NCBI GenBank assembly: GCA_019636755.1 | Contig: JAHBWZ010000001.1 | Location: forward strand, 620,001 to 684,000 | DNA: 64,000 nt | Source: Phycisphaeraceae bacterium | GTDB taxonomy: Bacteria; Planctomycetota; Phycisphaerae; Phycisphaerales; SM1A02 | Direction of reading: 5' to 3' | Shown: in pieces, positions 26,199-30,803 of the stretch | Position numbering within the stretch: the stretch's first letter is position 1 | Layout of the letters: every line of letters starts with the position of its first letter | Position numbers and translations under genes: made by a program | The notes under the pieces: model-generated | What the model saw: only the letters and a program-made list of their open reading frames with translations | Database searches by the model: none | Told to the model about the DNA's origin: nothing

Positions 26199-27635
26199 TC
26201 ACCCGGCGGTCGAGACCGCCTGGGGTGGGCGCGCCAGGACGTCCGCGACCGTGCGGTCGCTCCGGTCGGTGTCGGCCGGGACGATCTCGGCGAAGCGCGC
26301 CGTGAAGTGGCGGAGCACGGACGGGGCCTCGACGATCCGCAGTCCGCGCAGGCCGGACGCCCGACGGTGCAGTTCGGCGCACGCTTCCGCGACATAGTCC
26401 ATGTGACTCTGCGTGTACACGCGGCGCGGAATGGCCAGCCGCACCAGTTCCAGCGGCGGGTCCGGCCGTCCTTCGCCGCCGAACATGAGACTGCCGATCT
26501 CCACCGCCCGGATGCCGGCCGTCCGATAGAGGCCGCACACGACGGCCTGTCCCGGAAAGCGGCTCGCGGGGATGTGCGGACAGAACCGCGCCGCGTCCAG
26601 GTAGATCGCGTGCCCGCCCGGCGGCTGCACGATCCCGATCCCGGACCGCATGAGCTGTTCGCCCAGGTACTCGACGCTCCGGATCCGGTAGGCCAGGTAG
26701 TCCTCTTCCACGACCTCGCGGAAGCCCTGGGCCATCGCCTCGAGATCGCGGCCGGAAACGCCGCCGTACGTGAGATAGCCCTCGGTCAGAATGAGCAGGT
26801 TGCCGGCGCGACCGAAGAGCGCGTCGTCGCGCAGCAGCAGCACGCCGCCGATGTTGACCAGCCCGTCCTTCTTCGCGGAGATCGTCGCGCCGTCCGCCAG
26901 GTCGAACATCTCCCGGACGATCGCGCGGATCGGGCGATCACGCTGGCCGGGTTCGCGGGTCCGGATGAACCACGCGTTCTCGGCAAAACGGCACGCGTCG
27001 AGCATGAGCGGAAGCCCGTACTCGTCGCAGACCGCGCGCACGGCCCGCAGGTTCTCCAGGCTGACCGGCTGGCCGCCCGCGGAGTTGTTGGTCACCGTCA
27101 CCATGACCGCGGGAATCCGCGCCGGCCCGATGGTCCGGATCAGGTGCCGCAGGGCCTCGATGTCCATGTTGCCCTTGAAGGGATGCAGGACCGACGGGCA
27201 GCGCGCCTCGGCGACCGGAAGGTCCACCGCCTCCGCACCGCTGTGTTCGATGTTGGCGCGCGTCGTATCGAAATGGGCGTTGTTCGGAACGACCTTGCCC
27301 GGACCACCGATGAGTTCGAACAGGATGCGCTCGCTCGCCCGTCCCTGGTGCGTCGGCAGGACATGGCGGAAGCCCGTGAGTTCCTGGAGCGTCCGCTCGA
27401 ATCGCCGGAACGATGCGGCGCCGGCATAGGACTCGTCCGCGCGCATGATGCCCGCCCACTGCTCGCTGCTCATCGCCCCGGTTCCGGAGTCCGTGAGCAG
27501 GTCGATGAGGACGTCCTCTGCGTCGATCAGGAACGGATTGAATCCCGCGCGCTGCAGGATCTCCTCCCGCTCTCCCGCGCTGGTCAGGCGGATCGGCTCG
27601 ACCGACCTGATCCTGAACGGCTCGATCATCGTGCG
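26199..27635 (-). CDS. tnaA: Tryptophanase (tryptophan indole-lyase)
   Basis: A 478-residue PLP beta-eliminating lyase: tryptophan to indole, pyruvate and ammonia. Seen: PLP lysine in [10 protein letters not shown] (Lys257); substrate-loop NNAHFDTTRANIEHSG with Asp124 as in E. coli TnaA; TVTNNSAGGQPVS; and the specificity segment RTAGIRAVEIGSLMFG, where TnaA has Ile and tyrosine phenol-lyase has Arg. This makes it TnaA rather than TPL, though the two share a fold. GTG 27635 is preferred to ATG 27629 because AAGGAG sits 7 bases before it. It is the last gene of nnrS-tpl-tnaA, 19 bases after tpl. No tnaC-like leader or TnaB permease is seen. Confidence 0.88.
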   Translation of the reverse strand, partial: RTMIEPFRIRSVEPIRLTSAGEREEILQRAGFNPFLIDAEDVLIDLLTDSGTGAMSSEQWAGIMRADESYAGAASFRRFERTLQELTGFRHVLPTHQGRASERILFELIGGPGKVVPNNAHFDTTRANIEHSGAEAVDLPVAEARCPSVLHPFKGNMDIEALRHLIRTIGPARIPAVMVTVTNNSAGGQPVSLENLRAVRAVCDEYGLPLMLDACRFAENAWFIRTREPGQRDRPIRAIVREMFDLADGATISAKKDGLVNIGGVLLLRDDALFGRAGNLLILTEGYLTYGGVSGRDLEAMAQGFREVVEEDYLAYRIRSVEYLGEQLMRSGIGIVQPPGGHAIYLDAARFCPHIPASRFPGQAVVCGLYRTAGIRAVEIGSLMFGGEGRPDPPLELVRLAIPRRVYTQSHMDYVAEACAELHRRASGLRGLRIVEAPSVLRHFTARFAEIVPADTDRSDRTVADVLARPPQAVSTAG

Positions 27636-27654
27636 CACGGCCGCGCTCCTTTCA

Positions 27655-29151
27655 TCACGGGTGCCGGACCGGGACCCGGTCCGTGTCCGATCGCCGGGTC
27701 GACATCGCCGGCGCCGGGCCGTCACCGGCCTGTTCCCCGGCGCGCCACCGCAGAACCGTGTCGCCCTGCTCCGGTTCGAACCGCGCCTGGAAGAACCGCA
27801 GTCGGCGCGGCTCATAGGTGAACCGCAGGCCCGTGATGAGATCCCGGTTCTCGTACAGGTCGATCACGGATTCCGCGACGACGTCCATGTGCGCCTGCGT
27901 GTACACCCGCCGCGGGATCGTCAGCCGCACCAGTTCCAGCGCGGGGTAGAGGTTCTCGCCCGTCGTGCTGTCCCGTCCCGCCGAGACCGCGCCGCGTTCC
28001 ATCGCCCGGACACCGGAATCGATGTAGATCGCGGCCGCAAGCGCCTGCGCCGGGAGTGCCTCGCGGCGGACGTGCGGCAGGAACTCCGAGGCGACCAGGA
28101 AGACGCCGTGTCCCCCCACCGGTCGGACGATCGGCACCCGCGCCTCGAGCAGCCGGTCCGCCAGGTACGCCACCTGTCCCACGCGCGCATGGATGTACTC
28201 GGGCTGCACCATTTCATTGATGCCGACCGCCATGGCTTCCAGGTCACGGCCGGCCAGCCCGCCGTACGTGTGCAGACCTTCGTAGACGACGCAGAGATTG
28301 CGGGCCTCTTCCGCCAGGTCATCGTCGTTCAGCAGCAGCATGCCGCCGATGTTCACCAGGCAGTCCTTCTTGGCCGAGATGGTCGCCCCGTCGGCATGCC
28401 GGCAGATCTCGCGCAGGATCCGGGCGATCGACCAGTGCGCGTATCCCGGCTCGCGCTCCCGGATGAACCATGCGTTCTCCACCGCACGCGTGGCATCGAG
28501 GAAGACGCGGATCCCGTGGGCATGGCAGAGTGCACAGGCTTCGCGGATGTTCTCGAGACTGCACGGCTGGCCGCCGGCCATGTTGACGCAGGTTTCCAGC
28601 GAGAGATACGCCACCCGGTCGGCGCCGGCCTCCCGGATCAGCCGCTCCAGTTTCGCAAGGTCGACGTTGCCCTTGAACGGATGCAGGCTGGCGGGATCAT
28701 GCGCCTCGTCCACGATGACGTCCACGAACCGGCCGCCGGCCAGTTCCTGGTGATGCTTGGTCGTCGTGAAATACATGTTGCCCGGAACCAGCATGCCCGG
28801 GCGGATGCAGATCTGGCTGAGCAGGTGTTCCGCGCCGCGCCCCTGGTGCGTCGGGACCAGGTGGCGGAAGCCGTAGGCGTTCCGGGCGGCCTCCTCCAGC
28901 CGGTAGAAGTTGGCGCTCCCGGCATACGCCTCGTCACCGAGCATCATCGCCGCCCACTGCCGGTCGCTCATCGCGTTCGTGCCGGAGTCGGTCAGCAGGT
29001 CGATGTACACGTCCTCGCTCCGCAGGAGGAACGTGTTGTAACCCGCGGCCCGGATGGCCTGCTCACGGTCCGACCGGGTGGTCATGCGGAGCGGCTCCAC
29101 CATCTTGATCTTCCAGGGTTCGGCCCAGGATCGTCGCCCTCTGTCCGTCAT
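27655..29151 (-). CDS. tpl: Tyrosine phenol-lyase (beta-tyrosinase)
   Basis: A 498-residue PLP lyase that splits tyrosine into phenol, pyruvate and ammonia. Against Citrobacter TPL (numbering offset +5) the key residues are present: [10 protein letters not shown] with Thr129, [12 protein letters not shown] with Arg222, PLP Lys262 in [12 protein letters not shown], and Arg386 in the segment [17 protein letters not shown], the residue that binds the phenol hydroxyl and separates TPL from tryptophanase. [13 protein letters not shown] and HPFKGNVDL are shared by both. A 35-residue C-terminal tail is extra. ATG 29151 overlaps the nnrS stop by 4 bases, so translation is coupled. tnaA follows after 19 bases. 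Confidence 0.85.
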
Positions 29152-30803
29152 CGTCGTGCTTCTCCCTGGCAGCAGTCCGTCGCGGTGCCGCGACCCGGAC
29201 CGTCATCGTGCAGCAGCGCGTGCACGAGTACGGCGGGGTCGATTCCCTGTTCTGCCGCGATGTCGCGGATACGCCGATCCGCACTGCAGCAGGTATCGAG
29301 TCCGAATCGCGCCAGCCGCGGACGGACCGAGGGCCGGAAGGCGACGAGGTCATGGACCGTCGCGTCGGGGCCCGGCCGCACCACCGTCGGCGACGAGGGG
29401 TGCAGGCCGACGGCGCCCGCCGCGACCGGCGCCGGAACCGACCTGGCACACAGGACGCGCGCCATGCTCGCGCCCCACCACGCCAGGCCCGCGAACTCGA
29501 GCACGGCACTCAGCGGGATGAGATCGAAGGCCCGCGCGTTCCAGTCGGTCAGGACCTGCAGCACGACACGCAGCGCACACCCCGCGTTCACGAGTACGAA
29601 TGCGCCCCGGAGCGACGACAGGCGTGCCGGATCCCAGCCGCGGATCGACGGCACCACCCGTGCCGCCACCCCGAGGATCATCAGGGAGACGAAGCCCACC
29701 GTGATCGCATGCCGCGCCGCGCCCGCCCAGGCATGGCTGAACGGTGCACCGTGCACGCGCTGGTACACGGGGAAGAGCAGCAGCATCGCCATGGAGATGG
29801 CGAACCACAGCCAGGCGGCCCGGATGAACTTCCCGCTTCGATCCCGGCGCGGGAACCCCTGCCAGGGCTTCCAGGGAAGGACGATGAGCGCGGCGCCGGT
29901 CACGATGAGCGCCCACGCCGGAAGCAGACCCGCGAAGAGCGCATGACTGCCGGAGAGTCGACCCGCCGCCGGCAGCACCGCCGACGCAAGCACGCCGAGC
30001 ATGAGCAGTCCGAGCGCCGTCCATCCGCGTGCGGCAGGAATCGGCCGCAGGCCGAACATGCCGGGCATGATGCGGAGCGAGACCCCGAGGATCATGAACA
30101 GCGCCATGCCGTGCACCTGCATGGTCCGCAGCGAGCCCTGCCAGGTCGCGACGAGATCGACGAGCGCCTCGGGCGACGCCGCCGTCATCGCACGCAGTGC
30201 ATGCACAGGCCCCGCGACCGCCTGGATCAGGAACCAGACCAGCGCCATCGCGATGAACCCGTCGGCCGGGACCGGTCGCCGGCGCGCCGCCCGATATGTC
30301 GCCGCAAGCACGCCCAGGAACAGCACCCCGCCGATCACCTGGAGCACGCCGCCGGACACGACCGCGGCCACCGCGAGGTCGGACCGTTCCGCGGCCCACT
30401 GTCCGCCGGCCACGCACGCGAGCCCGAGCAGCGTCAGCGGCAGCACCGCCCAGGCGACGTGCGGCATCGACAGCCGGGTCCCCCACATCCGGGGGAACGC
30501 CTGGAGCGCGAAGCCCATGATGAACAGGCCGATCCAGCCTGAGACCTGGATGTGGCCGTGGGCGTTGACGTCATGAAGGCGGGGTGCGGTCATCGAGCCG
30601 GCCCCGGCGATCTGCCGCAGGAGCAGCCAGCCCCAGAGCGCGCCGCCGGTCAGCCCGAGCACGATCGCCGCCAGGAAGAAGCGACGCGCCACGGGCGGTT
30701 CCGCGACGCCGACCGCCGGATGCATCGGAAGCGCGACATCGCTTGCGTGCGTGGATGGACAGGCCGGGTGTCTGGTGATCACGGTGCTCAATGCCTCCGG
30801 CAT
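29148..30803 (-). CDS. nnrS: NnrS-family heme/copper membrane protein with C-terminal ScdA_N domain
   Basis: 551 residues. Residues about 40-455 form some twelve transmembrane helices with NnrS marks: [63 protein letters not shown] and [20 protein letters not shown]. NnrS relieves nitric oxide stress in denitrifiers and pathogens. After a Pro-rich linker the last 70 residues ([20 protein letters not shown], then [16 protein letters not shown]) match the ScdA N-terminal/DUF542 domain found at the start of RIC/YtfE di-iron repair proteins, including the CC pair. This fusion is unusual. First gene of the minus-strand operon and divergent from nosZ. Confidence 0.87.

Follow-up and report, generated by a model that had tools for sequence, protein, structure and literature searches.

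Tyrosine phenol-lyase genes are recurrently linked to nitric oxide and nitrogen-oxide genes in Phycisphaerae

In a stretch of 64,000 nucleotides from a Phycisphaeraceae bacterium (GenBank assembly GCA_019636755.1, contig JAHBWZ010000001.1, positions 620,001 to 684,000; the whole stretch is referred to as the window), three genes lie head to tail on the minus strand, namely nnrS, the tyrosine phenol-lyase gene tpl and a tryptophanase-like gene (tnaA), while a nos cluster is transcribed divergently from them (Table 1). Here we show that the linkage of tpl to nitric oxide (NO) and nitrogen-oxide genes extends well beyond this genome and is recurrent, varied and above chance in the class Phycisphaerae. 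Our check of the open reading frames (ORFs) bore out the initial annotation of this DNA in placing the three genes divergent from nosZ, in the 4-base overlap of nnrS and tpl (shared bases 29148-29151) and in the 332 bases between nnrS and nosZ (30804-31135). The gap between tpl and tnaA, which had been given as 19 bases, had to be corrected to 25 bases if tnaA starts at ATG 27629, or to 16 if it starts at the in-frame GTG 27638, a few bases ahead of which an AGGAG sits. No permease gene was found in the operon by the ORF and family-model scan, and NO genes adjoin instead. A search of positions 25900-31300 for sigma-70-like promoter or terminator patterns returned none, which is weak evidence given shuffle means of 0.3 and 1.1.

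The product of tpl passes the curated model TIGR02618 (741.3 against a cut-off of 720.7), and the tyrosine phenol-lyases (TPLs) of the PDB match it at E 1e-185 in an alignment spanning 450 residues. It has the residues that align with T124, R381, F448, F449 and K257 of the classical enzyme, whose numbering and roles we take to be the customary ones, and these positions are invariant across 141 aligned TPLs, the only exceptions being a single gap at each of R381, F448 and F449. By curated model and residues the protein is thus a TPL, and splitting of tyrosine is predicted. In the same alignment, the active-site residues are alike in TPLs that are linked to NO genes and in those that are not, and hence it is most likely that the enzymes catalyse the usual reaction and that what has changed is when the gene is used. 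An NO-specific change in the active site was considered and rejected, as M288L is common to 140 of the 141 sequences. We also noted 75 plasmid records of TPL, 41 of them from Vibrio or Pantoea.

The third gene is less sharply defined. It passes only the broad model NF009709 (cut-off 285) and falls below both tryptophanase equivalog cut-offs (TIGR02617, 490.6 against 825.8; NF053783, 520.8 against 750). Its residues D121, I378 and H441 align with the FDTT, EIG and RHFT motifs of the tryptophanase in PDB 8sbg, and the Asp, Ile/Val and His of the tryptophanase type presumably line the ring pocket. A profile built from six relatives, the window protein included, ranks a tryptophanase top among solved structures, with TPL structures close behind.

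To place the window in context, 397 genomes of its class, assigned to Phycisphaerae through contigs that some share with named records, were surveyed, of which 60 matched and 58 hold a true TPL. Two genomes (G367 and G395, 53% identity, tryptophanase-like) and the second matches in G311 and G100 were excluded, and L071, L072, L076, L078, L081 and L086, which are contigs of genomes with G numbers, were counted once. Each neighbourhood comprised 20 kb around tpl, or as far as the contig reached, and NO, nitrogen-oxide, Rrf2 or hemerythrin genes served as markers. A marker lies within 10 kb of tpl in 22 of the 58 genomes and within 2 kb in 14; markers that are neither Rrf2 nor hemerythrin occur within 10 kb in 13 (in one of these, L052, as a NapA fragment only). 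None of 28 random stretches of 20 kb, drawn from the same genome group, carried a marker. Because the marker profiles had partly been seeded from the same loci, the question was repeated with Pfam and NosZ searches of the genomes. The 58 tpl genomes hold 22 RIC genes, 3 of them within 2.2 kb of tpl against 0.03 expected, and 20 nosZ genes, again with 3 within 2.2 kb against 0.03 expected, one of the three being the window and 2 being left once its own genome is removed. Among at least 208 Rrf2 genes, 12 lie within 5 kb of tpl against 0.56 expected; these 12 come from the local profiles, and 10 of them are also among the Pfam matches listed. Rrf2, RIC and nosZ genes are therefore found near tpl 20- to 100-fold above expectation, with expected values that ignore phylogeny. 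In addition, nosZ is present in 20 of the 58 tpl genomes compared with 23 of the 339 others, uncorrected for kinship.

The linked or unlinked state changed at least 14 times on the class TPL tree (FastTree, with weak support at 52 of the 138 inner branches of the full tree), and the partners differ among loci, comprising Rrf2, RIC, hemerythrin, NnrS, NosZ, Nap and Nar-like proteins. Among 137 neighbour proteins of the class group, hemerythrin leads with 6, and Rrf2 has 3, NosD 2 and the Nos propeller 2; these are 137 of 161 proteins, near-duplicate loci having been omitted, and the Rrf2 genes of L045 and L081 were missed. Among 150 neighbour proteins outside the class, by contrast, the OmpA and AsnC/Lrp families are the most frequent, at 5 each, and neither hemerythrin nor Rrf2 is among the 25 of 196 families listed; this control used 150 of 211 proteins, with loci beyond L129 excluded, and two of its loci belong to Planctomycetota from other orders. 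As for the partner enzyme, tnaA lies within 5 kb of tpl in 17 of the 58 class loci. None of 11 loci with tnaA only carries a marker, five of them being from one genus and three being stretches shorter than 12 kb; this control is weak because linked tpl occurs in none of these 11 genomes.

The initial annotation had tied tpl and tnaA to nnrS and NO, and the two parts of that claim fared differently: tpl, often with tnaA, is non-randomly linked with NO and nitrogen-oxide genes, but nnrS is not its usual partner. A relative of the window NnrS (E 1e-8) was found in only 1 of 61 near relatives, which is the window's own genome, and nnrS lies within 5 kb of tpl in 2 of the 58 class genomes and also at the named locus L073. 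We therefore rejected NnrS as a constant companion of tpl; it is an occasional one, and Rrf2, hemerythrin, RIC, Nos, Nap and NapH-like ferredoxin genes are commoner near tpl or as common. The tail of the window NnrS does not qualify as RIC/ScdA, with ScdA_N at 23.5 against a cut-off of 32.5 and no hemerythrin domain found. This C-terminal extension carries a CC pair, and 8 of the 9 other class NnrS proteins examined (L231-L238) bear a different tail at the same place, which by eye we take to be DUF1858-like; it is absent in L239.

Individual loci illustrate the variety of the arrangement. In the near-relative set of 61 genomes, 17 encode a TPL of nearly full length with at least 64% identity (window included) and 8 hold nosZ. 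In L043, from a single-contig genome of the same family (G009), tpl is divergent from nosZ without nnrS and is followed downstream by an Rrf2 gene and then by nrfD-like, napA and related genes, while in L041 (G014) a single small contig carries a RIC-type gene, tpl, tnaA and a gene for a NapH-like ferredoxin. Named genomes were scanned as well, covering the best 80 of 544 confirmed TPL relatives, and the Planctomycetota loci among these include L069 and L078, described below, L073, with HHE-nnrS-pdxH-tpl beside nos genes, Rrf2 and nrfAH-like genes, and L071, with tpl followed by nosZDFYL. The order RIC-HHE-tpl occurs in L069, where Rrf2 is also present and the RIC protein passes TIGR03652 (253.8 against 204.7), and in L170, and RIC-tpl occurs in L184. 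In L078, tpl-NapH-like ferredoxin-HHE adjoins a Nar-like oxidoreductase that scores below every curated cut-off. Outside the phylum, RIC adjoins tpl in an Ignavibacteria metagenome-assembled genome (MAG; L093), and L125, from a Bacteroidetes MAG, has a run of RIC, a cytochrome c gene whose product resembles NorC by eye, tpl and tnaA. An oddity unique to this genome is thus rejected by the near-relative, named-genome and class surveys; the neighbourhood survey, which had been proposed as the check, found the linkage in many genomes, and a restriction to this one therefore fails.

Several further features of these loci were observed. A NapH-like ferredoxin membrane protein is encoded near tpl in L053, L041, L078, L158, L160, L164, L171, L179, L187 and L191; it has C-terminal TPR repeats in the two examples scanned, and in 7 of the 58 class loci its distance to tpl is at most 1 kb. 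At about 11565-12404 of L052, a NapA fragment and an NrfD fragment adjoin tpl, as though tpl had survived the decay of a nap cluster. Genes for quinolinate synthase (nadA-like) occur near tpl or tnaA in L040, L052 and L191. In the Chloroflexus-type loci L080 and L082, a TusA gene (by Pfam, L080) and an SQR-like gene (by eye) lie upstream of tpl, and in L074 and L075 the gene downstream of tpl resembles, by eye, an aromatic amino-acid decarboxylase dependent on pyridoxal 5'-phosphate (PLP). L070, from a MAG labelled Steroidobacteraceae, has tpl and tnaA genes with 73-75% identity to those of the window, by transfer or mis-binning.

The nos cluster of the window ends in a gene for an Rrf2-family regulator. 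Repressors of the Rrf2 kind include NsrR. The form TGGAT-N6-ATCCA was spotted by eye in four loci, with a perfect copy in the nosZ-tpl gap of L043 and two imperfect ones in the window (Table 1). In 70 other loci, 6 matches lie near marker genes compared with about 1.4 by proportion, and among 150 designs scored on these loci the form ranks 7 by ratio and top by count; across the whole window it has 21 matches against 15 expected. The form may be the site of the regulator, which is suggestive only.

Table 1. Features at the tpl locus and the adjoining nos cluster, in window coordinates
Feature	Coordinates	Strand	Basis
Tryptophanase-like beta-lyase	26199..27629 (alternative GTG start 27638)	-	NF009709, 647 bits
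tpl, tyrosine phenol-lyase	27655..29151	-	TIGR02618, PDB TPLs, conserved residues
nnrS, NnrS-family membrane protein with ScdA_N-like C-terminal tail	29148..30803	-	PF05940, 49.9 bits against cut-off 28
Divergent control region, 332 bases	30804..31135	.	Between nnrS and nosZ
Candidate operator, same form as below, 2 mismatches	30860..30875	.	57 bases before nnrS
Candidate operator TGGAT-N6-ATCCA, 1 mismatch	31069..31084	.	52 bases before nosZ
nosZ, Sec-dependent nitrous-oxide reductase (clade II type)	31136..33181	+	TIGR04246, 809.7 against 625
nosD, extra N-terminal part of about 290 residues	33332..35521	+	TIGR04247, 406 against 300, residues 293-675
nosF-like ABC ATPase	35518..36432	+	PF00005, place in cluster
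nosY-like ABC permease	36445..37332	+	PF12679, 117 bits
nosL	37329..37967	+	PF05573, 41 against 24
COX3-like protein into which a cytochrome c domain is inserted; gene located between those for NosL and Rrf2	37964..39274	+	PF00510, PF00034
Rrf2-family regulator ending the nos cluster, start codon approximate	39919..40383	+	PF02082, 103 bits; TIGR00738, 108 against 73

Reading regulation and purpose from this linkage, we give about even chances to the explanation that tpl, often together with a tnaA-like gene, has been recruited for the response to NO and nitrogen oxides as an oxygen-independent, metal-free route for tyrosine (and tryptophan). The usual breakdown routes of these two amino acids depend on oxygen and iron, and NO together with a lack of oxygen would disable them, while metal-free PLP lyases would still cleave tyrosine (tryptophan) into phenol (indole), pyruvate and ammonia, products that would feed nitrogen-oxide respiration and the nitrogen supply. 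In Phycisphaerae, Rrf2-family regulators probably control the recruited tpl; in the window, the nnrS-tpl-tnaA and nos operons would switch on jointly from the 332-base region, and the switch would be the Rrf2 protein whose gene is the last of the nos cluster. The pdxH gene next to tpl in L073 and the PNPOx-family genes found within 5 kb of tpl in 4 of the 58 class loci fit the need of such enzymes for PLP.

A number of observations weigh against recruitment into the NO response. No marker lies within 10 kb of tpl in 21 of the 43 assessable class loci, the remaining 15 of the 58 being unjudgeable on short contigs, and 9 of the 22 linked loci have only Rrf2 or hemerythrin, neither of which is NO-specific; the marker of L052 is a NapA fragment. 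In one genus (L046-L050), tpl is surrounded by housekeeping genes. The 25 neighbour families listed for the class group, out of 199, include no permease for aromatic amino acids. In 50 genomes sampled outside the class, an ScdA_N match occurs somewhere in 23, and RIC stands beside tpl in only 2. The Rrf2 protein of the window passes the Rrf2 superfamily model and fails the NsrR model NF008240 (38 against 182), the enrichment of the candidate operator is weak, and PdxH, encoded beside tpl in L073, makes PLP using oxygen, which fits poorly with strict anoxia.

A rival explanation is that the genes share an island and no function, with tpl travelling or accumulating in anaerobic-respiration islands and being expressed independently. 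The unlinked half of the assessable loci, the many draft MAGs and the widely varying flanking gene sets all speak for this explanation, which we nevertheless hold to be unlikely, as the spacing is of the operon type (the 4-base overlap in the window, and in L164 a ferredoxin gene that ends about 31 bases upstream of tpl), distinct NO partners recur across lineages and the enrichment is seen at the 2 kb scale. Tyrosine and tryptophan are also the residues most prone to nitration, each being the target of one of the two lyases, and TPL and the tryptophanase-like enzyme might remove nitrated aromatic amino acids under NO stress, converting free 3-nitrotyrosine and nitrotryptophan into nitrophenol or nitroindole, pyruvate and ammonia and so averting their misuse in protein synthesis, a small-molecule repair paralleling that of Fe-S clusters by RIC. 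At some loci tpl indeed sits with the damage-repair genes RIC and HHE, the marker profiles detect no nitrogen-oxide respiratory gene in the L069 and L184 stretches, and there is a precedent by title, a 2008 work by Rankin in which NsrR of E. coli reportedly regulates the oxidation of 3-nitrotyramine. Nonetheless, such sanitation strikes us as rather improbable: since the ring-binding residues are the same in linked and unlinked TPLs there is no sign of an altered substrate, respiratory genes do occur in other clusters, and, judging from titles and the beginnings of abstracts, no paper found to name both TPL and nitrotyrosine appears to have assayed the one on the other.

The products themselves could be the purpose, with phenol and indole being released as signals or as scavengers of nitrosating species. 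The enzyme chemistry would allow it, but no export or sensing gene was recognised in the neighbourhoods inspected by eye and tnaA, the source of indole, accompanies tpl within 5 kb in fewer than a third of the class loci (17/58), and we regard this as very unlikely. Still harder to sustain is a role in supplying sulfide from cysteine, either to the copper-sulfur centre of NosZ or to Fe-S repair. Beta-lyases do have a side activity on cysteine compounds, and nosZ maturation genes, RIC and Fe-S proteins are found among the neighbours, as are the TusA and SQR-like genes beside tpl in Chloroflexus-type loci; however, the phenol-recognising residues are kept wherever they could be aligned, and 38 of the 58 tpl genomes are without nosZ at E 1e-60.

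Recruitment of tpl into the NO response would tie a well-studied amino-acid lyase to NO stress and nitrogen-oxide respiration in a little-cultured group, and it predicts the release of phenol (and indole) and an NO-dependent choice of the tyrosine route in bacteria that reduce nitrous oxide. It would also present a case of function by context, in which one enzyme has NO genes beside it here and other company outside the class. The initial annotation had stated that no such link was described, and this holds as far as our literature searches went: in titles and the beginnings of abstracts, there appears to be no report linking TPL with nitric oxide, nitrotyrosine, denitrification or Planctomycetes, nor one linking tryptophanase with nitrous oxide reductase, NsrR or nitrosative terms.

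Compared with known systems, the window operon shares its enzyme families with the classical tna and tpl operons, but those include a permease, whereas here the permease is missing and NO genes stand alongside. As in the E. coli NsrR/3-nitrotyramine system, known to us by title, an aromatic amine pathway would be under NO-responsive control, although that system oxidises an amine and the enzymes here are PLP lyases acting on tyrosine and tryptophan. The comparative reconstruction of NsrR-, DNR- and NnrR-type NO regulons (PMC1274295) offers a parallel in gene content, with nnrS, RIC (dnrN), nos genes and a regulator near its targets; unlike those regulons, in whose main text a term search found no 'tryptophan', 'tyrosine' or 'lyase', the window includes the two lyases, and unlike in the NsrR regulons its Rrf2 protein falls short of the NsrR model. 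In Rhodobacter capsulatus, tpl lies within the RegA regulon (PMC5359404); the passages seen describe no linkage of tpl and nos genes, and in the RegA table the two change in opposite sign, unlike our proposal for the window, yet there, too, tpl is under the control of a redox-responsive regulator.

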